Source: Planktothrix agardhii NIES-204 (GTDB lineage: Bacteria; Cyanobacteriota; Cyanobacteriia; Cyanobacteriales; Microcoleaceae). From it: DNA of 64,000 bases. The translations under genes and the position numbers were made by a program. The notes beneath the pieces are model-generated. The model saw only the letters and a list, made by a program, of their open reading frames with translations, ran no database searches and was not told the origin of the DNA. Each line of letters starts with the position of its first letter. Position 1 is the stretch's first letter. The stretch covers positions 2,559,501-2,623,500 of the forward strand of contig AP017991.1 of assembly GCA_003609755.1 (NCBI GenBank). The letters run 5' to 3'. Positions 8,181-53,501 of the stretch are shown in pieces.

Positions 8181-10413
8181 CAACCATTCCTAATACGGGA
8201 ACCCCGGCGGTGTTAATTTCTCTCAAGGCTAAACTAAAGGCTTCTCGGTCGGTTTTTCCTAAACCTACAACCATCATTAACCCATCGGTATGAGGGGCTA
8301 ATAAATTGGCATCGGCTAACCCTAAAATTGGGGCGGTATCGTAGATAATTAAATCGTAGGATTCCTGCAATTGTTTCATTAACTCCTGCATCGGTTTTGA
8401 GGATAATAACCGAGTCGGGTCGGGATAGAATTGTCCGGCGGTTAACACTGATAAATTCGCCTCTGAAGTGACCTGTTTAATCACGGTTTTAAAATCTAAT
8501 TTTTGAGTTAAAATATTAGTTAATCCCAATTGATTTGTGATTTCTAATAGGGTATGAATCCGAGGACAACGCAGGTCAGCATCGACTAATAAAACCCGTT
8601 GACCCATGGCGGCGGCTCCCTGGGCTAAATTCATAGCAATGGTTGATTTTCCATCGGCGGGAGTGGCGGAAGTAATCACACAAGAGCGCACAGAACCTTC
8701 AGGGTTTAAGAGACGTAAATTAGTATTTAAAGCTCGGAATGCCTCTTGGAATGGACTACAAGCGGGGTAGGTGAGATCAGAAATATCAATAATTGGTGCA
8801 ACTGAACCGGGAAGGATTAAGGCTTCATTACTAGCTGGAATTACCCCTAATAATGGTAAAGAAATCCTATCGGTAACTTCGTGGGTTGTACGATAAACAT
8901 TGTTAAATCGTTCTAGGATTTGAGCCGTAATTACCCCTAAAAATAACCCAGCTAATCCCCCTAGAGCAAGATTTAAAGGAACATTAGGAGAAACCGTAAT
9001 TAATTCTCCATTTGTATTACTGGGAATCCGAGGAGGAGCAATTAATTCCCAAGGTTCCGACTTGACTTTAGGAACAACTTGGAGTTGCATTTCTTGAGAT
9101 TTATTATTCAGTTCTGTTAATTGATTTGTAGTATTTTTTAACTGTTGTTGTAAATCATTATATCGACCCAAAACCTCTGGAAATACTTGAGAATATTGGT
9201 TTAATTGTTGAGTGGCTTTTTCTAAAACTTGATTTCTCACCTTCAGCATTTCAATATTATTCGCCACCAAAATTAACTGCTGAATTAGTCCCATGCGGAT
9301 CGAATCTTGAAACCGAATAATATTAGGATCGACTTGATTGGTATTTGCTCCCAATACATTTTTAGCTTCTTTTTCTAATAAGGGAAGTATTTGCGATCGC
9401 TGATCCAATAAGGCTTGAATTTGCGGTGCTGTTCCTTTAAAACGGGCGGATTCAATCGCTATTTGTGTTTCTAATTTTAATAACTCTTGAAGTAACCCTT
9501 GATATTGGGGAGATTGAGTTAAGGCGGATGCAAGTAACGCTTGTTCTGGTTTCAATCCCAACTGTTTTTGCAAATATTGATATTGAGATTCTTGTTGGAC
9601 AAGTTGGAATTGAGCTTCTAATTTTTGAGCTTGTAATTCACTCTTTTGTTTGAATAAATATTCAGTTTGTAGTTTCGGGTCAATAAAATTATATTGTTGT
9701 TGGAGTTTCTCAATTCCTTGTTTAATTTGGGGTAGTTTTTTCTCTAAGGTAGCAATTTGCGCCTGAATTAATTTTAATTGTTGTTCTTTTTGTTGATCTT
9801 TTACATCTTTAGGATGACTATATTTCAAGTAACCTTCAGCTATTTTTTCTAAAACAAATTGGACTTTTTGAGGTTCGGAATCTTGATAACTGACTTCAAA
9901 AATTCGGGTTTGTTTTAAGGGTTTAATCGCCAGGTTATCATTTCCCCAAAATGTTTGTCCAGTTTTTTGATTAAGTAGAGAATCATAAGTAACTTCAGGA
10001 TAGCGGGTTTGAATCCCTTTGAGAATTCCCGACATTAATTTGGGACTTTGTAAAATTTCCAGTTGGGAATAATAATCGAGGTCTGAATTTTTTTCTGAAT
10101 TCGAGTCTAAGCTCCCCTCGTTTTCGGAGGGTTGGGGGGGGGAAGTTTGGGGATTAGTTTCAACTAAAATTTGAAATGACCCTTTATATTCCGGGGTTTG
10201 ATTAATTGTCCACAGATAAACTCCAGCAGTAACGGCCGTTGTCACCCCTAAAACAGCAATCGCTCGTTTCCATAAAACCTGAAAAAAATTAGATTTTTCT
10301 TCATCATATCCAGGGTATAAATCAGGATCATAATATAAAATTTCTCCCGATGGATGTAAGGTTTTTCTAGTATTTTTATCAACAGAGAGTTGAGATAATT
10401 TTTTATTTTTCAT
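8137..10413 (-). CDS. Wzc-like polysaccharide co-polymerase / tyrosine autokinase
   Basis: A membrane protein controlling exopolysaccharide chain length and export. The N-terminal part has a cytoplasmic leader, TM1 (AIAVLGVTTAVTAGVYLW), a Wzz-type periplasmic domain, long Gln-rich coiled coils and TM2 (LALGGLAGLFLGVITA). The C-terminal BY-kinase domain has Walker A TPADGKST, Walker A' VLLVDADLRCP and Walker B LIIYDTAP. The tail HYYRDY is short and carries few tyrosines. ATG at 10413 (758 aa) is preferred to a TTG at 10491. A palindromic insertion-like segment lies just after TM1. Upstream on the same strand is its outer-membrane partner. Confidence 0.9.
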   Translation of the reverse strand: MKNKKLSQLSVDKNTRKTLHPSGEILYYDPDLYPGYDEEKSNFFQVLWKRAIAVLGVTTAVTAGVYLWTINQTPEYKGSFQILVETNPQTSPPQPSENEGSLDSNSEKNSDLDYYSQLEILQSPKLMSGILKGIQTRYPEVTYDSLLNQKTGQTFWGNDNLAIKPLKQTRIFEVSYQDSEPQKVQFVLEKIAEGYLKYSHPKDVKDQQKEQQLKLIQAQIATLEKKLPQIKQGIEKLQQQYNFIDPKLQTEYLFKQKSELQAQKLEAQFQLVQQESQYQYLQKQLGLKPEQALLASALTQSPQYQGLLQELLKLETQIAIESARFKGTAPQIQALLDQRSQILPLLEKEAKNVLGANTNQVDPNIIRFQDSIRMGLIQQLILVANNIEMLKVRNQVLEKATQQLNQYSQVFPEVLGRYNDLQQQLKNTTNQLTELNNKSQEMQLQVVPKVKSEPWELIAPPRIPSNTNGELITVSPNVPLNLALGGLAGLFLGVITAQILERFNNVYRTTHEVTDRISLPLLGVIPASNEALILPGSVAPIIDISDLTYPACSPFQEAFRALNTNLRLLNPEGSVRSCVITSATPADGKSTIAMNLAQGAAAMGQRVLLVDADLRCPRIHTLLEITNQLGLTNILTQKLDFKTVIKQVTSEANLSVLTAGQFYPDPTRLLSSKPMQELMKQLQESYDLIIYDTAPILGLADANLLAPHTDGLMMVVGLGKTDREAFSLALREINTAGVPVLGMVANGDKQETHYYRDY
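10111..10144. repeat. Palindromic repeat-like segment inside wzc-like gene
   Basis: In coding sense the segment reads CCCTCCGAAAACGAGGGG flanked by a C8 run, a hairpin of the intergenic-repeat type. It lies in frame and encodes the low-complexity PPQPSENEGSL after TM1. That it is an inserted repeat is inference. Confidence 0.4.
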
Positions 10414-10559
10414 ATTAATTTTTGGGGTAATTTCAACAATTTCAGTTTTGTATAGCAGTCGCCATAAGTTTAGAATCTGGATTCTCGCCAAAGCCGGAAT
10501 GACATCCCATTTTCACACCGGATATAATATAGCTTATAAATCTTGTCCTCCTGTTCCCT

Positions 10560-10600
10560 CCCCCCCTAGCCCCCCGTGCACGGGGGGTTTGGGGGGGCTG
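10560..10600. repeat. CCCCCCGTGCACGGGGGG palindromic element
   Basis: Layout is C7-TAG-C6-GTGCAC-G6-TTT-G7, a near-perfect hairpin between the wza-like and wzc-like genes. Similar copies are at 12913-12955, 62863-62910 and 63488-63524. Confidence 0.85.
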
Positions 10601-10612
10601 TTCCCTCTCCTA

Positions 10613-12145
10613 TTAAAAAATATTCACAAATCGAAAAAGCCCTAAAAAGTTGTTAATCGGACTTAACGAATTTAACACAGTTCCTAAACCCTCTCGGAAA
10701 GCCGCCCCCCCAGAACGACCAACGACAATAACATCATTATTTCTCAGGGTTGGGTTAGTTTCCTCATTCACTTGCGCCGATAGATTAATCGCAATTTGGC
10801 GCCGAGAAACCGTCCCATTCGGATGAATACGAATTAATTCCACTTGTTTTTTATTCGCCCGGGATTCATTAAATCCCCCCGCTTCCACCAAAGCTTGATT
10901 CAAAGCAGTATTGGGAGGGAGACTTTTCGCCCCTGGAGACACCACCTCACCCACCAGACTAATTTTTAGGGTATCGGGAGAAAAAGAAGCAGCCAATACC
11001 TCCGCATTTTGTTGACTTTCGGCCGTTGTCGCCGTTGGGACTACAATCGTATCTCCCTGTTGTAACATCGCATCTTGGCTCAAATCTCCTTCTTGTAACA
11101 GTTTCCATAAATCTACAGTAATCTGTTGTTCGGTTCCAGTGCGGGTCAGACGTCGTACCTGGATATTACGGATATCCGCGCCCGGAGTAATTCCCCCCGC
11201 CATTTTCAGGGCTTTCGTCACCGTAAACAGTCCCCCAGTCGCCGCCACTGAACCCTCGATAGGTTGACCGGGTTCAGAGGGAATTCTGGGAACCGTTTCT
11301 AAGGTTAGGGTATGGGTTCCGGGGCGATTAACTGCACCGACCACAGCAACATTTATGGGTTGATTATTATTACTAGCAAAATTAGCGGTAATTAATTGGG
11401 AAGATTCCGCCGCATTGTGTTCGGTATTGGTGGGAATATAAATTGTATCTCCGTCCCGCAGGGTAATATCCTGACGTAAATCTCCCGTTTGTAGGAGTTC
11501 CCACAAATCCAAATTGATAATTTTTTCCCCCCCAGTTCCACTTGATCGCCGAATTTTTACCTGTCGCATATCCGCGCTAGGGGTAATTCCTCCGGCCATT
11601 TGTAATACCCTTGTAATTGTGGGTAAACGTCCCCCTGTACCCGATACTTCTGGGGTTCCAATCATAGGGTTATTCGGGGTCGTAGCTGCGGACGGAGAGA
11701 CAATATAAGACCCCGGACGTTGAACTTCTCCCGTCACCGCCACTTGTAGAGGACGGGCTGCGATTAATTTAAGAGCTAAAATCGGCCGTTGTAAATATTC
11801 TCCATAGCGCTGTTGAATCAGTGCCGTTACTTGGTCTACCGTCATTCCTTGAACTGAAATATTACCAATTAAAGGCAAATTCACAGAACCATCAATCGAG
11901 ACTTGATGATGACCATTATTACCACTATATTCAGGAACATTAAAAATATCGAGTTGGAGCAAATCTCCTGGGCCTAGGGTATAACTCGTATCACTTGGAG
12001 GAATATTAACTATCGGTTGAGTGATGACCTCTTGGGCTTGGGCGATGGGAATATGTCCCAAAATGACCACAACCGGAAGCCAAACCCCCCATAACCCCAG
12101 GAAATTACCAGTTATTTTAAATTTTAAAGATAGAATCTTGACCAT
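10613..12145 (-). CDS. Wza-like polysaccharide export protein with SLBB domains
   Basis: An outer-membrane/periplasmic exopolysaccharide export protein of about 510 aa. It begins with a hydrophobic leader (FLGLWGVWLPVVVILGHIPIAQAQ), giving a likely signal peptide cut after AQA. A Poly_export domain follows (YTLGPGDLLQLDIFNVPEYSG, about 55-130), then three SLBB-type units marked by VAVTGEVQRPGSY, VAVVGAVNRPGTH and ISLVGEVVSPGAK. The first two share near-identical tails (MAGGITP, DLWELLQ/DLWKLLQ). ATG at 12145 is preferred to TTG at 12154. It precedes the wzc-like gene, from which the palindrome at 10560 separates it. Confidence 0.9.
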   Translation of the reverse strand: MVKILSLKFKITGNFLGLWGVWLPVVVILGHIPIAQAQEVITQPIVNIPPSDTSYTLGPGDLLQLDIFNVPEYSGNNGHHQVSIDGSVNLPLIGNISVQGMTVDQVTALIQQRYGEYLQRPILALKLIAARPLQVAVTGEVQRPGSYIVSPSAATTPNNPMIGTPEVSGTGGRLPTITRVLQMAGGITPSADMRQVKIRRSSGTGGEKIINLDLWELLQTGDLRQDITLRDGDTIYIPTNTEHNAAESSQLITANFASNNNQPINVAVVGAVNRPGTHTLTLETVPRIPSEPGQPIEGSVAATGGLFTVTKALKMAGGITPGADIRNIQVRRLTRTGTEQQITVDLWKLLQEGDLSQDAMLQQGDTIVVPTATTAESQQNAEVLAASFSPDTLKISLVGEVVSPGAKSLPPNTALNQALVEAGGFNESRANKKQVELIRIHPNGTVSRRQIAINLSAQVNEETNPTLRNNDVIVVGRSGGAAFREGLGTVLNSLSPINNFLGLFRFVNIF

Positions 12146-39197: not shown

Positions 39198-39818
39198 TTA
39201 TGCCTGACCGCCACGCCATTTAAAAATAATCGTCTCATCAGCCTGTTTAAACTCGATATCAAACAAATCAAACACCACCTCTCGTCCTAACAAAACTTCT
39301 TCACAAAAATCGCTTTGTATCCACGCCACAGGAGCGGTAAAACGATGACCTTCTATCTCTATTTCCACCTGTCTTAATAGATATTCAATACTACCACCAA
39401 TTCCCTCACCACTACCCAGGTTTTCTCCCTCTCCTTTGGTATAACCTAAATCTTCCCCCATTTTTTTAGTAATTAAGCTAAAATCTGCCCCTGAGTCTAC
39501 TAGCATTTTTACTTTTTCAGTATGCTCTTGATATTTAAGTAATAATTCATATTTGGGTTGCCAATCATGAGCTTTTAGCGATCGCATTCTCACCGGATAA
39601 AACTTAACAGGCTCAATAAACTCGCTTTCATATATCCGCTCAATTGTATAACTCAATTTAGCTGTATCTGGGGGAATTCCATCTTTCATTTTTCGATAAT
39701 CTCGATCATGACTAATCACGCCTGTATTCGTATAAGCGATCCATTGGCCCCGATATATTTTTAATTTAGGACGATTGGCTTTATACCAATCATTAGTTGT
39801 TGCATATTCCGGTTCCAT
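39198..39818 (-). CDS. Retropepsin-like aspartic protease with DUF5678-like N-terminus
   Basis: A 206-aa protein. The N-terminal segment YRGQWIAYTNTGVISHDRDY resembles the small DUF5678 domain. The C-terminal half carries a retropepsin active site, MLVDSGADFSLI (DSG), and the second-half mark VLLGREVVFDLFDI. It would act as a dimer with one DSG per subunit. Substrate unknown. It lies at the border of the glycan island, and a second DSG protein is inside that island at 47301. Confidence 0.75.
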   Translation of the reverse strand: MEPEYATTNDWYKANRPKLKIYRGQWIAYTNTGVISHDRDYRKMKDGIPPDTAKLSYTIERIYESEFIEPVKFYPVRMRSLKAHDWQPKYELLLKYQEHTEKVKMLVDSGADFSLITKKMGEDLGYTKGEGENLGSGEGIGGSIEYLLRQVEIEIEGHRFTAPVAWIQSDFCEEVLLGREVVFDLFDIEFKQADETIIFKWRGGQA

Positions 39819-42916: not shown

Positions 42917-43105
42917 TTATGAATCCAACAAATATCGGTTCCATTTAATTGTCCGCTTGATCGCAGTCTCAATATCAACCTTCAAGCTCAAACCCAATGT
43001 TTTCTGAGCTAGGGTAATATCGGGAACAAACTTAGAATGATTTGAGTTAGCATCTTCTGCAACACGGGATATTATCTTAGGTCTGAGGGAGAAATAGAGG
43101 GCATT
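42917..43105 (-). pseudogene. C-terminal remnant of an NDP-sugar epimerase
   Basis: Reading the - strand gives PKIISRVAEDANSNHSKF, then VPDITLAQKTLGLSLKVD and IETAIKRTIKW before a stop. This is the C-terminal end of an NAD-dependent epimerase/dehydratase (compare VPLTNRALLDLG...EDAIKRTI in the gene at 44880). The N-terminal Rossmann part is absent. It lies directly downstream of the transketolase gene and marks a deleted last gene of that operon. The rest of 42787-43113 shows nothing else. Confidence 0.7.
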
Positions 43106-43113
43106 TTTACACC

Positions 43114-44055
43114 CTAATGTAAATTAATATTAGCATCAATCATAGCAGCTTTACACAAAAAAGTCCCTATCTGCTCTAACACTGAATTTGTATCTAAATT
43201 ATGTTCTCCCATAAGATATTCATAACTACCACAGAAATGAGAAAATCTATCCTGAATCCCAATTCTACATATCCATGTGGGAGCATACGTAGTTGCAATT
43301 TCAGCCACCACAGACCCCAAACCCCCATATATTGAATGTTCTTCTAATACTACTACAGTCCGATGCTGTTTACAAATAGTGACAATCTGGTTAACATCTA
43401 TTGGCTTCACTGAAGGTACACTCCATACGGAACTATCATCGAACTTTTGGGCAGTTTGTAATGCAGTTTTAACCATAGAACCAGTAGCAATAAATCCGAT
43501 TTCACCGATTCCTGACTTAATAGGACATAACTGACCCCAACTTAGCTCTGGGAGAGAATTATGAATATCTCCCAAATCAGCTTTACCCATTCGCAAATAT
43601 ACTGGACAATCTGCATTAAGGGCTAAACTCATACATTGAGTCATTTCATAGCCATCGGCTGGTGAAAGAATTGATATATTTGGCAAAGCTCGCAAAACAG
43701 CTATATCTTCAGTGCTTTGGTGGCTTGACCCTAAACTACTGTAAACAACTCCTGCACCATCGCCCATCAGTACCACTGGTAATTGTTGATAACAAATATC
43801 CAACTTAATCTGTTCTAGCACCCGTATGGGAAGAAATGCGCTTAACCCATATACAACAGGTCTAAAGCCAGACTTAGCAAGTCCAGCCGCTACACCAATC
43901 ATATTTTGTTCAGCCACACCTGCATTGATATACTGTTGAGGGCAAACTTGACGAAATTCATCAAATAAGGCGTAGCCATGATCGCCTGTCAACAAAACAA
44001 CTCGATCATCTAATTGAGCCGCTTTGACCAAAGCAGTCGCAAAAGCACTTCTCAT
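43114..44055 (-). CDS. Split transketolase, C-terminal subunit
   Basis: A 313-aa protein with the pyrimidine-binding and C-terminal domains of transketolase. The catalytic Glu lies in NAGVAEQNMIGVAAGL (about residue 49); GSSHQSTEDIAVLRALPNI and SILSPADGYE are family marks. It needs the diphosphate-binding subunit encoded 14 nt upstream. GGAGA precedes the ATG. Being split and inside a CDP-sugar operon argues against a role in central metabolism. Confidence 0.9.
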   Translation of the reverse strand: MRSAFATALVKAAQLDDRVVLLTGDHGYALFDEFRQVCPQQYINAGVAEQNMIGVAAGLAKSGFRPVVYGLSAFLPIRVLEQIKLDICYQQLPVVLMGDGAGVVYSSLGSSHQSTEDIAVLRALPNISILSPADGYEMTQCMSLALNADCPVYLRMGKADLGDIHNSLPELSWGQLCPIKSGIGEIGFIATGSMVKTALQTAQKFDDSSVWSVPSVKPIDVNQIVTICKQHRTVVVLEEHSIYGGLGSVVAEIATTYAPTWICRIGIQDRFSHFCGSYEYLMGEHNLDTNSVLEQIGTFLCKAAMIDANINLH

Positions 44056-44069
44056 CTTAATATCTCCTT

Positions 44070-44876
44070 TTATTGGTTATCTAACTCAGAAATCGCAGAC
44101 GCATAACTATTAGGAGTCAAGCGAGTGTAGTGCCATTGGTTATTTCCTTCCATAAAAGAAATACCTTTTCCCTTAACTGTATGAGCAACAATGGCTCTGG
44201 GTTGATTAGATGATATCTCCATTAACTCTCGAATAGTCGCGTCCAAAGCAAATTCATCATGGCCATCCACATCACGAGTTTCAAACCCAAAAGATTGAAA
44301 TTTATCGCTGATATGGCCTAACCTGATAATCTCTTCCGTCTTTCCCATTGCTTGGTAGCCATTTTCATCAACAATTACTAACAAATTATCAAGTTCAAAA
44401 TGAGATGCAAACATTAATGCTTCCCAAATCGCCCCTTCATTAATTTCACCATCTCCCACAATAGCAAAACACCTCTGTCCCGTCTGCCGGCGTTTTGCTG
44501 CCAAAGCCAATCCCACTCCCACAGAGAGTCCATGACCCAACGACCCTGAAGTTACCTCTAGTCCAGGTACATGAGCATCTGACAAGCCTTTTAAAATTGT
44601 GCCATTGCTAAAGTAATTTTGAATATCGGCATCAGTTAACCAACCTAGTTCCCGCATACAAGCATATTGAGCCATCACACCATGACCCTTGCTCAACACA
44701 AGATAATCTCGCTCAGGTGATTCTGGTTTTCCGTTTCCTAAATTCAAGTGCGAACGGTAAAGAACAGCTAAAATTTCAATAAGAGAAAAAGCACAGGAAA
44801 TATGTACTGTTGATCCGGCATAAGCCATTTCTAAAACAGTCTTACGAAGCTGTTTAGATTCAAATAATAATGACAT
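44070..44876 (-). CDS. Split transketolase, N-terminal (TPP) subunit
   Basis: A 268-aa thiamine-diphosphate subunit: YLVLSKGHGVMAQYA, GSLGHGLSVGVGLALAAK, and the TPP motif GDGEINEG...VIVDENGYQ. Together with the 43114 product it would form a complete transketolase transferring a two-carbon ketol. Start ATG 44876 with GAGAGG upstream, 3 nt from the preceding stop. In this operon the acceptor may be a CDP-4-keto-3,6-dideoxy sugar (inference). Confidence 0.9.
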   Translation of the reverse strand: MSLLFESKQLRKTVLEMAYAGSTVHISCAFSLIEILAVLYRSHLNLGNGKPESPERDYLVLSKGHGVMAQYACMRELGWLTDADIQNYFSNGTILKGLSDAHVPGLEVTSGSLGHGLSVGVGLALAAKRRQTGQRCFAIVGDGEINEGAIWEALMFASHFELDNLLVIVDENGYQAMGKTEEIIRLGHISDKFQSFGFETRDVDGHDEFALDATIRELMEISSNQPRAIVAHTVKGKGISFMEGNNQWHYTRLTPNSYASAISELDNQ

Positions 44877-44879
44877 AAC

Positions 44880-45923
44880 TTACCTCTCCGATATAACCGA
44901 TAAGATCGTTCGTTTAATGGCATCCTCTAAGCCAATCATTGATTTTAACCCCAAGTCTAATAAAGCGCGGTTAGTTAAAGGAACATAGCGTTCAACCTCT
45001 TTGCCTGCTAATGGTTTTTGAGCAATGATTACCTCTACTTGAGGTTGAAAAACTTGGGCTACTAAATGAGCGATACGAGAAATTGACAGATCAAAATCTG
45101 AACCTACATTATAGGGATAACAAGACTGACCTTTCAACAAAATTGTCCATAACCAAATAGCTAAATCGGCGGCGTAAAGGTAAGAACGGTAAGGTGTACC
45201 ATCACCATTAACTAAAATTGGACAGCCTTGAAGCCCATCACGAATAAAATTACCGATCGCGAAATGAGTATCTAAAGGCAAATAAGGACCAACAAAAGCG
45301 AAACAACGGGCAATTTTGGTCTCAAAACCATATTGTTTACCATACAGAGTACAGAACATTTCAGCCGCACGTTTTCCTTCACCATAAGCCGACTGAGCAT
45401 GGGTGAGATCTGGAGCAGCCATATAATCTTCAGGAATATGAGTTAGATCAGATGGTTGCTTACCATACACGGCTCCTGAACTGGTTAACAGAAATTTTTT
45501 CGCTTGACACAGTTTAGCAAATTCTAGCGTATGTCTTGTGCCTTGGACAATTGTCTCAAACATCAATAAAGGATTTTCTTCATTGAGTTTGGCACTGGCT
45601 TCCGTAGCGGCATGAATTACATGGGAAAAATTACCTTCAGGAAAGTTAAATGATGTAACATCGCCGATTATAAACTGAATTGATGGATGGTTAGCTAAAT
45701 GTGGTGCTTTGTTTCTAAAAGCATCATAATTTCTAGTCAAAACTACAACTTCCGCGTTTAACCCCAGTTTATCATTAGCCCAGATCAAGCTCTCTAGTAG
45801 CCAACAACCAAAGAAACCTGTACCTCCGGTAATAAAAATACGCTGGGAGCGTAACTCATCCCATAAATCATCAGTCCGAACAAGAATATCATCTAAATCC
45901 TGAGCTAAAGAATTACTAGCCAT
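44880..45923 (-). CDS. NAD-dependent epimerase/reductase of sugar nucleotide
   Basis: A 347-aa extended SDR. The Rossmann motif ITGGTGFFGCWLLESL is at about 30-45; the catalytic YxxxK is intact in SAYGEGKRAAE, with SSGAVYG before it. It could reduce or epimerise the CDP-linked keto sugar, as abequose/paratose synthases or YerF do in related pathways. AGAGG precedes the ATG. Gaps to neighbours are 3-4 nt. Confidence 0.85.
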   Translation of the reverse strand: MASNSLAQDLDDILVRTDDLWDELRSQRIFITGGTGFFGCWLLESLIWANDKLGLNAEVVVLTRNYDAFRNKAPHLANHPSIQFIIGDVTSFNFPEGNFSHVIHAATEASAKLNEENPLLMFETIVQGTRHTLEFAKLCQAKKFLLTSSGAVYGKQPSDLTHIPEDYMAAPDLTHAQSAYGEGKRAAEMFCTLYGKQYGFETKIARCFAFVGPYLPLDTHFAIGNFIRDGLQGCPILVNGDGTPYRSYLYAADLAIWLWTILLKGQSCYPYNVGSDFDLSISRIAHLVAQVFQPQVEVIIAQKPLAGKEVERYVPLTNRALLDLGLKSMIGLEDAIKRTILSVISER

Positions 45924-45927
45924 ATCT

Positions 45928-47271
45928 TTACCTCTGACAAAAACCTTTAATAGTTGTCACCACATATTCTAACATTTCCTCGGTTAAACCTGGAAATAGA
46001 CCCATCCAAAAAGCACTCTGCATAACTTTATCTGTATTCTTCAACTCCCCGACCACACGATAATTTAATCCTTGATAGAGGGGTTGACGGAGCAAATTTC
46101 CACCAAATAATAATCTAGTACCAATCCGTTTTTCTTCCAAATATTGGACTAACTCATTTCGCGTAAAGGGGGCATTTTCTTTCACAGAAATCAAAAATCC
46201 AAACCAACTGGGTTGTGAATTTAGGCTGGCTTCTGGAAGTTGTAAAATATCTTTTAAATCCTGTAAACCTTGATACAGGAAATTAAAATTTTCTTGTCTT
46301 TTTGTGACAAATTCCGGTAATTTATCCAATTGAGCAACACCGACAGCAGCCTGCATATCAGTTAGTTTTAAGTTATAACCAACGTGGGAATAAGTATATT
46401 TGTGGTCATAGCCCAAAGGTAAATCTCCTAACTGCCAACCAAAGCGTTTATTACAGGTATTGTCAACCCCAGGAGCGCACCAACAATCTCGACCCCAATC
46501 TCTAAAGGATTCTACAATTTTTTTCAGACGAGTATCATTGGTTAAAACCGCGCCTCCCTCACCCATAGTGATATGATGGGCGGGATAAAAACTGACCGTT
46601 GCTAAATGACCAAAACTTCCGGTTTTTTTGCCTTGATAAAGACTCCCTACCGCATCACAGTTATCTTCAATTAACCACAAATCATGTTTCTCGGCAAAAG
46701 CCATCACCGCTTCCAAATTAAAGGGATTTCCCAAGGTATGGGCAATCATAATTGCACGGGTACGAGGCGAAACTGCTAACTCTAATTGATCGATATCAAT
46801 ATCATAAGTAGGCAGTTTCACATCCACAAATACAGGGACTAACTGATTTTGAAAAATCGGGTTAACGGTTGTAGGAAATCCTGCCGCCACCGTAATTACT
46901 TCATCTCCTGGTTTCAGTTGCTTATCCCCTAATTTGGGCGATGTTAAAGCAGATAAGGCAACTAAATTAGCAGAAGACCCGGAGTTAACCAGTAAGCAGT
47001 GTTTAACCCCCATCCACTCTGCAAAACGTTGTTCAAATTCCGCAGCATAGCGTCCTGTAGTTAACCAGAAATCCAGTGAAGCATCAACTAAATGTACCAG
47101 TTCTTGATCATCAAACACTTTACCCGAAGCCGGAATATAGGTTTGACCAGGGATAAAGGTTTTGTGAGTAAATTTATATTCGTAGTAGTCTTTGACCGCA
47201 GCAAAAACTTGTTCTCTGAGTGTTTGTTCTTGCTCGGAGGCACTAGCAGGACGGGGTAAAGATTGAGTCAT
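45928..47271 (-). CDS. rfbH: CDP-4-keto-6-deoxyglucose 3-dehydrase RfbH (E1)
   Basis: A PMP- and Fe-S-dependent enzyme that removes the C3 hydroxyl of CDP-4-keto-6-deoxy-D-glucose. The usual PLP lysine is replaced by His in [16 protein letters not shown], the known feature of RfbH/E1. The Cys-rich segment [17 protein letters not shown] fits its [2Fe-2S] site. ATG 47271 with AGGAAG 6 nt upstream gives 447 aa; the GTG at 47277 is less likely. The reductase partner E3 (RfbI) is not in the window. Confidence 0.93.
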
Positions 47272-47300
47272 GATCACTTCCTAAAATTAGCGATTTCTTT

Positions 47301-47720
47301 TTATTTTAAAGATTTTTTAGCAAAATAAGGACTTGCTGGATTCACAATTAACCGTTGTTGACGAGGATCTATTAATACATCCATATCCTCCAGAGGAATA
47401 GCCCCTAATAAGACCTCAGTATCTCCTGGTAATACCATTGCTCGACAAGTAGTAGAACGATTTTCAAATCGCACTTCCACAGGGCCAACAATCTCTAGTT
47501 TCAACTTTGAACCATCTGCTAATTCAGCAATTTGTTCTTCTAATTTCGGTAAATCTAGCTGGAGTTTAATGCTTTCATTAATAGCTAACATATATGCACC
47601 GCTATCAACTAAAGCTTTTACAGTTATTTTTTTGACATTCTCTGGTAGTATGTAGCCTTTTTGAGCTAAATAAATTTCTCCCGCGTTAGCAATTTCGATT
47701 TCTGCGTAAGTAAGTCCCAT
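47301..47720 (-). CDS. Clan AA (retropepsin-like) aspartic protease in sugar operon
   Basis: A small protein (139 aa from ATG 47720; GTG 47735 is an alternative) beginning MGLTYAEIEIANAG. It has one active-site-like triad VKALVDSGAYMLAI, and the flap/second-half marks VLLGAIPLEDMDVLIDPRQ. The family is common in cyanobacteria, its substrates unknown. It lies between rfbG and rfbH in a tight operon, where no proteolytic role is expected. Confidence 0.78.
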   Translation of the reverse strand: MGLTYAEIEIANAGEIYLAQKGYILPENVKKITVKALVDSGAYMLAINESIKLQLDLPKLEEQIAELADGSKLKLEIVGPVEVRFENRSTTCRAMVLPGDTEVLLGAIPLEDMDVLIDPRQQRLIVNPASPYFAKKSLK

Positions 47721-47742
47721 GAGGTTTAATTTCACTCCTTTT

Positions 47743-48732
47743 TTAATTTAAGCGATCGCGTAAAAAATCTTGATACCATTTTATCGTCTCCTGTAAACAT
47801 TCATCAAGGGAATATTTAGGCTTCCAATTCAATATCTCACGAGCTTTTTTAGCAGAAAGATATTGATGCTTAATTTCATTTTTAGCCTGATTCAAAATAA
47901 TAGGTTCTAAATCTTTCTTATCCATCAAAGCTAGAATTTTCTGCACCAATTCTAACACGGTAATTTGCAGTTCATTACTAAAATTAAACGCCTCGCCCCA
48001 GATTTCTTTTCTGTCCATCTGTTCGGCTAAATGCAGATAGGCTAATACCCCATCCCTAACATAAAAATAATCACGGATATAACTGCCATCACTACGGATA
48101 GTAACGGGTTTATCGCGCAATGCTGAACGAATTGTATCGGGTACAATGCGATTAAAATTTAAGTCCCCACCGCCATAAAAATTACCACAGCGAGTGATAC
48201 AAACTGGCAATCCATAACTAACATAATAAGTGCGACAAATCAAATCTGCACAACTTTTAGACACATCATAGGGGTGTTCCCCTTGTAATGGTGTGGTTTC
48301 ATCGTAGGGTAAAATTTCTTGATCGCCATACGCTTTATCACTAGAAGCCACCACAATTCGACTGACTCCCCCCACACGACGACAGGCTTCTAATAGGTTC
48401 CAAGTTCCTTTAATATTCGCTTCAAAGGTGGCTAAGGGTTCACGGTTGGCTACTCCGACAATAGTTTGAGCCGCTAAGTGAAAAACCGTATCGACTTCAT
48501 ACTCATTAATGGCTCGTTCTAGGGTCGGTAAATCTTCAATACAACCCCGAACAATATTAATTTGATGATGCCAGTTTTCCGCATACAATCGAGACTGGGG
48601 AACACCATCACGGATTAAAGCCGTTACCCTAGCTCCTCGATTCACTAACTCCGCTACTAACCAACTTCCTAATAACCCTGTACCCCCGGTGACAAACACA
48701 GAGCGATCACGCCAAAATTGACTTATTTCCAT
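47743..48732 (-). CDS. rfbG: CDP-glucose 4,6-dehydratase RfbG
   Basis: Makes CDP-4-keto-6-deoxy-D-glucose. A 329-aa extended SDR with the NAD motif [24 protein letters not shown] and the catalytic YxxxK in [26 protein letters not shown] is typical of the family. ATG 48732 is chosen because [13 protein letters not shown] then sits at the usual distance. ATG 48762 would add ten residues. It overlaps the rfbF end by 10 nt, so translation is coupled. Confidence 0.9.
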
Positions 48733-49502
48733 ACTTTCCAAGGAGCTTGTTGAGTTTCCCACATTTTATTGAGTTCAGTATATTCTTTAAAGGTATCCAT
48801 CGCATAAAAAAAGCCATGATGCTGATAACTCATTAACTGACCCTCTGCTGTTAAACGCTCTAAAGGTTCCCGTTCTAATATACAATGCCCTCCCTCTAAA
48901 TAATCAAATACTTTGCGGTTAAAGACAAAATAACCCGCACTCACCCATTTATTATCCTTAATCTTCTCCCCAAACTTCAAAACCCTAGCTTCTCGTTCAT
49001 CAATATCCACAATTCCATAACGAGAAGGCGGTTGTACGGTTGTGACGGTTGCCAATTTCCCATGTTCTTTATGAAAACTGAGTAATTCTCCAATATTGAC
49101 ATCAGCCAGACCATCTCCATAAGTAACCATAAATAGATCATCTTCGATATATTTCTCGATCTGTTTAATTCGTCCTCCGGTTTGGGTTTCAACTCCTGTA
49201 TTTGCTAAGGTAACTCGAAAATTCTGCTCGTCGTGATTATTCAGATAATGAATTTGGTTAGGAACTCCTAAAGCAATGGTAAAGTCATTGTTCATCGCTT
49301 CATAATTAAGGAAATATTCCTTGATCATATTTCCCCGATATCCCAAACAAGCGATAAAGTCTAAAAAACCATAATGAGCATAGAGTTTCATAATATGCCA
49401 AATAATCGGCCGTCCGCCAACTTCAACTAATGGTTTAGGACGATATTCCGTTTCTTCTCGGAGGCGAGTTCCCAGCCCTCCGGCTAAAATTACAACTTGC
49501 AT
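48723..49502 (-). CDS. rfbF: Glucose-1-phosphate cytidylyltransferase RfbF
   Basis: Starts the pathway by making CDP-glucose. A 259-aa nucleotidyltransferase with the pyrophosphorylase motif [20 protein letters not shown] and [11 protein letters not shown]. The C-terminal [13 protein letters not shown] is typical of RfbF. ATG 49502 places VVILAGGLG at the N-terminus. First gene of the leftward operon, divergent from a TPR gene. Confidence 0.94.
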
Positions 49503-49631
49503 CGCTTGCCCCAATATTTAACAAACAAACTTATAATAACCGATTAGAAAGATCAAAATTGATTGAATCGAGCAGAATTACCACTCAATGTTAAACTACT
49601 ACTATCAAAACCAATCCAGCCTAGTGACAAC

Positions 49632-52241: not shown

Positions 52242-53501
52242 ATGCACTTAACACATCGGAAAACCTGTCGGGTATGCGGTTCTTCAGCCCTCACCCCTGT
52301 GATCAATTTGGGAGGGCAATATTTACAAGGTTCTTTTGTAAAACCAGGTAAAGAGGAACCACCGCAGAGAAAAATTCCCCTTTCTTTGGTGCGTTGCGAT
52401 CCCACCCGAGATGAACACGCTTGTGGTTTGCTACAAATGCAACATACCGTTCCGCCGGAGATTTTATATTCCGCTTACTGGTATCGTTCTGGTACTAACC
52501 AAACCATGCGAAATCATTTGCAGGGAATTGCTGAAGATGGGGTATCAATGATCGGCAAAAGTAAAGCTTTGGTGTTGGATATTGGCTGTAATGACGGCAC
52601 TTTGCTGAAGTATTATCCCAAAGATTTTATTAAATTTGGGGTCGATCCTTCTGATGTAGCTCAGGAGGTTGGTGATGATATTACTGTGATCCAAGATATC
52701 TTTCCTTCCCAAGAATTGTTGAAGAGAACTAAAGGCGAAAAGTTTGATGTGATTACATCAATTGCCATGTTCTACGATCTCGAAGATCCTGTAACTTTTT
52801 GTCAAGAAATTAAGGCAGCTTTGGCAGAAAATGGCTTGTGGATTTTTGAAATGTCCTATATGCCATCAATGTTAAAAATGAACTCCTATGACACTATTTG
52901 CCATGAGCATTTAGAGTATTACAGTTTAGCAGTGCTGGATATTATTCTGAAAAAAGCTGACTTGAAGATAGTGGATGCAGTTCTTAATGATATCAATGGT
53001 GGTAGCATTCGCTGTTATGCCACACACATTGATAATTTCACCTTCAAGAAACAAGAAGCTATGCAGCGCCTCCAGCAGTTGCGCCAAGAAGAGTTTGATA
53101 TGGAGCTTGATACTGACAAGCCGTACAAAAACTTCCAAGACAGAATTAATGTCCACAAAGATCAACTAATAGGAATGCTTAAAACCCTCAAAAAAGAAGG
53201 CAAAAGCATTCATATTTACGGTGCTTCGACCAAAGGTAATACAATCTTGCAATGGTGTGACATTGACAACCGCATTATTGATTATGCCGCTGAACGCAAT
53301 CCCGATAAGTATGGAGCTTATACTTTAGGAACTGATATTCCGATTATCAGTGAAGCGGAATCAAGAGCCATGAATCCAGATTATTATTTAGTCTTGCCCT
53401 GGCACTTTAAGGAAGAGTTTCTAAAGCGTGAGGCAGAAACATTAAAAAGTGGTGTGGGAATGATCTTCCCCCTGCCAACAGTTGACATTATCAAATACTA
53501 A
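52242..53501 (+). CDS. NDP-sugar C-methyltransferase
   Basis: A 419-aa methyltransferase of the TylC3/TcaB9 type. An N-terminal zinc-binding segment (CRVCGSSALTPVINLG), a SAM domain (VLDIGCNDGTLLKYYP), the catalytic-region CHEHLEYYS, and a C-terminal domain with IHIYGASTKGNTILQW. Such enzymes methylate C3 of NDP-4-keto sugars. It follows the GMD-like gene and precedes two GT4 genes by 6 nt, so it likely makes a branched sugar for them. Confidence 0.88.
   Translation: MHLTHRKTCRVCGSSALTPVINLGGQYLQGSFVKPGKEEPPQRKIPLSLVRCDPTRDEHACGLLQMQHTVPPEILYSAYWYRSGTNQTMRNHLQGIAEDGVSMIGKSKALVLDIGCNDGTLLKYYPKDFIKFGVDPSDVAQEVGDDITVIQDIFPSQELLKRTKGEKFDVITSIAMFYDLEDPVTFCQEIKAALAENGLWIFEMSYMPSMLKMNSYDTICHEHLEYYSLAVLDIILKKADLKIVDAVLNDINGGSIRCYATHIDNFTFKKQEAMQRLQQLRQEEFDMELDTDKPYKNFQDRINVHKDQLIGMLKTLKKEGKSIHIYGASTKGNTILQWCDIDNRIIDYAAERNPDKYGAYTLGTDIPIISEAESRAMNPDYYLVLPWHFKEEFLKREAETLKSGVGMIFPLPTVDIIKY

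Follow-up and report, generated by a model that had tools for sequence, protein, structure and literature searches.

What would a split transketolase do in an operon whose other genes point to a CDP-linked dideoxy sugar? The question is raised by a stretch of 64,000 nucleotides (hereafter the window) of the cyanobacterium Planktothrix agardhii NIES-204 (contig AP017991.1, positions 2,559,501 to 2,623,500), whose genome (G000) has 5.08 Mb. Seven minus-strand genes, spanning 43114-49514 of the window, follow each other in the order rfbF-rfbG-(retropepsin-like gene)-rfbH-SDR-tktN-tktC, SDR being a short-chain dehydrogenase/reductase and tktN and tktC the halves of a transketolase (TK); this order forms a conserved core. 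The original prediction, made from the letters of the window, had described one tight leftward operon, and this is confirmed, coordinates included: rfbF and rfbG overlap by 40 nt and the spacings that follow, in the direction of transcription, are 7, 23, 4, 3 and 14 nt. The answer that we favor, and consider probable, is that the TK pair would transfer an acetyl group, leading to a yersiniose-type 4-C-(1-hydroxyethyl) sugar.

The operon and the pathway it would encode

The genes of the operon, and a remnant beside them, are the following (ThDP, thiamine diphosphate).

48723-49514, minus strand: rfbF, glucose-1-phosphate cytidylyltransferase (TIGR02623, 331 bits, cut-off 300)
47743-48762, minus strand: rfbG-like CDP-glucose 4,6-dehydratase, cyanobacterial variant (best match TIGR02622, 230 bits, below the cut-off of 278; SSDKAYG motif)
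47301-47735, minus strand: retropepsin-like clan AA aspartic protease (TIGR03698, 62.8 bits, cut-off 57.35)
45928-47277, minus strand: rfbH, 3-dehydrase, E1 (NF011936, 763 bits, cut-off 423)
44880-45923, minus strand: SDR of type A, proposed branch-ketone reductase (PF01370)
44070-44876, minus strand: tktN, ThDP-binding half of a split transketolase-like enzyme (PF00456, Transketolase_N)
43114-44055, minus strand: tktC, pyrimidine-binding half of the same (PF02779, Transket_pyr, and PF02780, Transketolase_C)
42920-43114, minus strand: C-terminal SDR remnant of 65 residues, directly 3' of tktC

Among the families of CDP-3,6-dideoxyhexose synthesis, RfbF and RfbH exceed the curated cut-offs and RfbG does not; rfbG copies 71-80% identical to it adjoin rfbH in loci L055, L060-L063 and L065. 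RfbH has His at the position of the pyridoxal phosphate lysine of the aminotransferase family (in a 14-residue motif), which we take to be the mark of a 3-dehydrase E1. Ser, Tyr and Lys of the SDR are invariant across 10 SDRs.

From this gene set we infer a route in which RfbF and RfbG would produce CDP-4-keto-6-deoxyglucose and RfbH would remove O-3. The two-carbon unit that TktN and TktC, as a single ThDP enzyme, would add at the C-4 ketone is most likely an acetyl group from decarboxylated pyruvate, and the product would be CDP-4-C-acetyl-3,6-dideoxyhexose. The SDR would then reduce the branch ketone to 1-hydroxyethyl, and the resulting yersiniose-type sugar would be destined for a surface glycan. 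The reductant of RfbH would come from ferredoxin or another reductase, since RfbI (E3) was not found. That RfbI is missing locally had been noticed before. A tblastn search of the window at E 1e-8 agrees, and the absence extends beyond it: in the whole genome, an RfbI query of 328 residues gave only four partial matches, of 68-74 residues and in frames of 102, 106, 115 and 197 aa, and no full-length RfbI. The matches in five further cyanobacterial genomes, whose TK pairs belong to the clade described below (G334, G261, G346, G426 and G427) were to the ferredoxin part or to a separate reductase piece, never both complete. Elsewhere, an RfbI-like protein (Fer2, FAD_binding_6 and NAD_binding_1) is encoded immediately before rfbF in 8 of the best 80 TK loci described below, one of them truncated by the locus end, and this ties the TK to a full E1/E3 pathway.

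Conservation of the cassette and the place of the transketolase

In a class sample of 291 genomes, NF011936 was over its cut-off in 22, including that of the window. The seven window proteins served as queries against these 22 RfbH neighborhoods (20 fetched, plus L042 and the window; several on short contigs). The TK pair accompanies rfbH in nine of them: the window, L055, L060, L061, L062, L063, L065, L073 and L042. Both halves are 63-77% identical to those of the window in L055, L060-L063, L065 and L073, and 35-38% in L042. A wider scan of genome contigs used the tktN alignment and no rfb information, and we kept the best 80 of at least 558 stretches encoding a relative, some of which duplicate the class sample (L077 and L078 resemble L061 and L060). 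With rfbH called at ≥45% identity and within 6 kb of tktN, it was present in 67 of the 80, on the same strand in 66; where the flanks are ample (6 kb or more upstream and 3 kb or more downstream, 55 loci), the count is 51. The association of rfbFGH with split tkt genes, proposed at the outset as something to look for across genomes, is thus real, and a chance neighborhood is excluded by the conservation of the gene set in relatives.

An SDR usually comes with the TK as well (47 of the 55 ample-flank loci have one of type A, B or C). This part of the earlier idea that the SDR plays the role of YerF stands, and the reductase step itself remains a prediction. Over the best 80 loci, type A (counted within 3.5 kb of tktN) was found in 40, type C in 20 and type B in 3; type C had no match to solved structures at 1e-5. 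In L042, an FkbM methyltransferase (10251-11198) sits between the type B SDR and tktN, close to a type A fragment.

A tree of 107 distinct concatenated TK sequences, built by a quick method, puts 86 of them in one clade on a long stem (SH-aLRT 100), with the window's pair among the cyanobacterial members. According to database records, the rfbH-linked members of this clade belong to at least six phyla (Cyanobacteriota, Pseudomonadota, Planctomycetota, Chlorobiota, Bdellovibrionota and Elusimicrobiota), many of them as metagenome-assembled genomes. Among plasmid records, examined for annotated members of the clade, 89 matched, probably from outside it, since all are below 60% identity.

The retropepsin-like gene had been counted among the genes of the operon. 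We rejected it as a part of the pathway because tblastn at E 1e-8 gave no match to it in the loci of relatives (L036-L073 and L074-L153); it is probably an insertion. Another clan AA aspartic protease-like gene, with an N-terminal DUF5678 domain, is found on the same strand at 39198-39818 of the window.

A parallel for the step that the pair would catalyze comes from the cyanobacterial cluster L067, where the order is rfbF-rfbG-rfbH-SDR A-YerE-like enzyme-acetaldehyde dehydrogenase-4-hydroxy-2-oxovalerate aldolase. Its SDR A is 68% identical to that of the window. The ThDP enzyme (595 aa, three TPP_enzyme domains) has as its best solved relative 8rph, at E 3e-121 versus 1e-67 for acetolactate synthase (ALS); we take 8rph to be the YerE-like JanthE. 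The assignment of the split TK to the YerE slot of the pathway, already made in the original prediction, is therefore supported: L067 has a YerE-like enzyme in that very place beside a closely similar SDR, and the TK pair is rfbFGH-linked and apart from the housekeeping TK in the tree. Across the 22 class loci, several of which lie on short contigs, the TK pair was found in nine, a YerE/ALS-type enzyme in three (L067, L069 and L071) and both in none. Sequence identity by itself did not tell YerE-like and ALS enzymes apart, so the distinction was drawn from location and curated families. Of six ALS queries, one (L189) looks like a frame from the wrong strand; L162 was the best query for every ALS-type hit given here, and the ALS-type protein of L139 was taken to its tblastn bounds. 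G000 has three PF02776 matches, none of them within the window.

The rfbFGH clusters of L067 and L071 resemble an erwiniose-type pathway, and L071 also has a 4-hydroxy-2-oxovalerate aldolase near its YerE/ALS-type gene. The TK pair could then be imagined to resemble ErwE in using a 2-oxo acid of greater length and to make an erwiniose-type longer branch, the more so as SDR type A is common to the window and L067. We regard this as improbable: family scans, which covered the operon of the window, found neither aldolase nor acetaldehyde dehydrogenase among its genes. The remnant after tktC is 40% identical over 62 residues (E 2e-10) to the second SDR of L067 and may mark a gene that the operon has lost.

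The yersiniose-type product that we favor may have a counterpart in Paraburkholderia kururiensis. In strain KP23 (L097), rfbF, rfbG, rfbH, SDR A, tktN and tktC stand in one row. The species was formerly named B. brasilensis (PMC6692535, in excerpt), and NCBI taxonomy resolves a name beginning "Burkholderia brasil" to P. kururiensis. Yersiniose A is described in B. brasiliensis, with a hydroxyethyl and not a dihydroxyethyl branch, in excerpts of PMC4153317 and PMC4753412 that cite Mattos 2005. In the P. kururiensis genome, contig C35 encodes the single RfbH that exceeds the cut-off. A YerE-type gene was not found there, and all nine PF02776 matches of the genome are on other contigs. Eight of them pass the curated threshold of a different named family, and the ninth (L197) passes none.

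Active site and probable donor of the split transketolase

The active site was compared with that of E. coli TktA. His26, His66, Asp155, Asn185, His261, Glu411 and His473, which include the residues that bind ThDP and its metal and the catalytic Glu, are identical in all 90 sequences of the clade group. Removing the second TK pairs of two loci (L147_3937 and L149_3433, both with His at position 100) leaves 88 clade sequences, 86 of them distinct, to be set against 22 others (21 distinct, since L033 and L048 are one gene; L031 was seen over a few kb only). All 88 have Leu for His100, Gly for His461 and Leu for Asp469, and none of the 22 others has Leu at position 100. The residues of transketolase are thus kept at the cofactor site and not at these three donor and acceptor positions, of which His100 binds the donor. 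In the window, they correspond to TktN Leu98 and to TktC Gly100 and Leu108, with Glu49 of TktC at the place of Glu411; the HMMER alignment puts Leu98 opposite His of the Carboxydothermus split TK (6yak) and of human TK. L147 (a spirochete) and L149 (a planctomycete) each have a second, different split TK pair, so that His stands at TktA position 100 in one pair and Leu in the other.

The two halves reach 231 and 150 bits against the NCBIfam transketolase cut-off of 488 (NF004559), each covering part of the model. tktN matches Transketolase_N at E 7e-31 versus 1.3e-11 for E1_dh. Of the YerE-type domains, tktN has a marginal PF02775 (23.7 bits, cut-off 21.9), and neither half has PF02776 or PF00205. 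A 1-deoxyxylulose-5-phosphate synthase (DXS) does not fit either, with two chains and with Leu instead of Phe at the His100 place.

Leu at position 100 is the change that gives laboratory TKs the use of pyruvate, and for this reason we infer that the donor is most likely acetyl from pyruvate and not a ketol. In a stabilized background, the H100L and D469T changes let E. coli TK use pyruvate, which the wild type does not (PMC10787763, in excerpt). In a Geobacillus TK, H100L lifts pyruvate use to one third of that of DXS, which has Phe at this place, whereas the Carboxydothermus split TK keeps His100 and refuses pyruvate (PMC7661550, in excerpt). The latter (6yak) is the top solved-structure match for both window halves and differs by its His100. 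Other Geobacillus variants are H102L/H474S, for 2-oxo acids, and L191I/D470L, for propanal and hydroxypyruvate (PMC7696235, in excerpt). Engineers thus altered the same positions, His100 and Asp469, as are altered in the natural clade, but in laboratory mutants with further changes and aldehyde acceptors.

The original prediction had the pair add a ketol from a sugar phosphate, leaving a hydroxylated branch, and here it does not fare well. A ketol taken from a ketose phosphate or hydroxypyruvate and transferred to the same acceptor would give a 4-C-(1,2-dihydroxyethyl) sugar. This would be in keeping with the match of the halves to transketolase, with the Arg and Lys that remain in the clade at TktA Arg358 and Arg520, with the proposal that hydroxyacetyl is passed on to keto sugars in miharamycin and amipurimycin biosynthesis (PMC12247030, section 2.3), and with the two-subunit TK Rif15, which transfers a C2 keto fragment onto a ketone that is not a sugar via a C-O bond (PMC6002545, in excerpt). 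We find it unlikely in view of the invariant Leu at His100 and of the hydroxyethyl branch of yersiniose A in a species that carries the cassette. If such a transfer exists, it more likely belongs to a second, distant rfbFGH-linked lineage (5 of the 18 TK loci fetched: L042 and, from outside the class, L039, L040, L041 and L043), in which His100 is kept in 5 of 5, while His461 is replaced by Gly and Asp469 by Ala or Leu.

Finally, the halves could act on free sugar phosphates and merely share an operon with CDP-sugar genes, as certain clade members without rfbH nearby might suggest. This seems the least probable of the alternatives, slightly behind the longer 2-oxo acid: the clade has lost all three residues and mostly has rfbH within 6 kb, and G000 encodes another, full-length TK in which His100, His461 and Asp469 are retained. 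The presence of this enzyme also led us to reject the halves as the cell's own transketolase.

Several points weigh against an acetyl-transferring TK in this pathway. The engineered pyruvate variants carry extra changes and the earliest ones were slow (PMC7696235 and PMC10787763, in excerpt), and, according to a review (PMC12247030, section 2.3), none of the proposed sugar-branching TKs has been demonstrated to form a C-C bond at a ketone. The Gly and Leu that replace His461 and Asp469 are shared by split TKs for which no rfbH was found in the fetched stretch (L037, L038, L047, L050 and L053), so that, of the three changes, only Leu at His100 is specific to the clade. No rfbH lies within 6 kb in 13 of the best 80 loci. 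Four of these 13 have ample flank (L076, L117, L144 and L149), and for L076 an RfbH exceeding the cut-off is encoded elsewhere in the genome (G427). All three SDR types are lacking in 17 of the 80, eight of them with ample flank. L128 and L139, beyond the class set, hold a TK pair together with an ALS-type gene, and neither of the two was found in L054, a locus with rfbH and an SDR A of 73% identity. The aldolase beside the YerE-like gene of L067 suggests a longer, ErwE-like donor, so SDR type A need not act on an acetyl branch. The link between cassette and yersiniose A holds by species, because the strain of the report, which we take to be M130, is not among the records used and the cassette was seen in KP23.

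Known systems and significance

The closest known system is the yersiniose pathway (DdhA-D, YerE and YerF), with which the operon shares the CDP-4-keto-3,6-dideoxyhexose set, a ThDP enzyme and an expected reductase. YerE, however, is a single-chain flavoprotein of the decarboxylase superfamily (PMC12247030 and PMC4753412, in excerpt), and here there is a split TK-type pair. The split-gene TKs of miharamycin and amipurimycin in Streptomyces are likewise proposed to branch a keto sugar; compared by description only, they differ in the proposed hydroxyacetyl transfer and in their range (13 listed, all Streptomycetes; PMC12247030, section 2.3). The alpha-KADH2 enzymes of aldgamycin, paulomycin and kibdelomycin, with alpha and beta subunits in KbDH, likewise put acetyl from pyruvate onto a keto sugar (PMC12247030, section 2.2), but they belong to a different ThDP superfamily from tktN, which matches Transketolase_N far above E1_dh. 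We found no report of this cassette in the literature on transketolase with rfb or ddh genes, yersiniose or branched sugars.

Elsewhere in the window, at 52242-53501 on the plus strand, there is a C-methyltransferase (PF08421, PF13489 and PF08484) beside open reading frames that look by eye like a GMD-like SDR and glycosyltransferases, possibly a second branched-sugar pathway.

On balance, we consider it somewhat more likely than not that this is a natural pyruvate-using, ketone-accepting split TK, changed at the engineers' positions His100 and Asp469, which would branch CDP-4-keto-3,6-dideoxyhexose at C-4, is linked to rfbH in at least six phyla, and would be the branching enzyme of at least one yersiniose A species. 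A 2025 review states that no ketone-accepting transketolase has been characterized in vitro (PMC12247030, section 2.3), and the 86 distinct sequences of the clade are natural candidates for such enzymes. If our reading is true, the known routes to C-branched sugars would gain one more type of enzyme, and there would be an explanation for a producer of yersiniose A without a YerE-type gene found beside its pathway genes.

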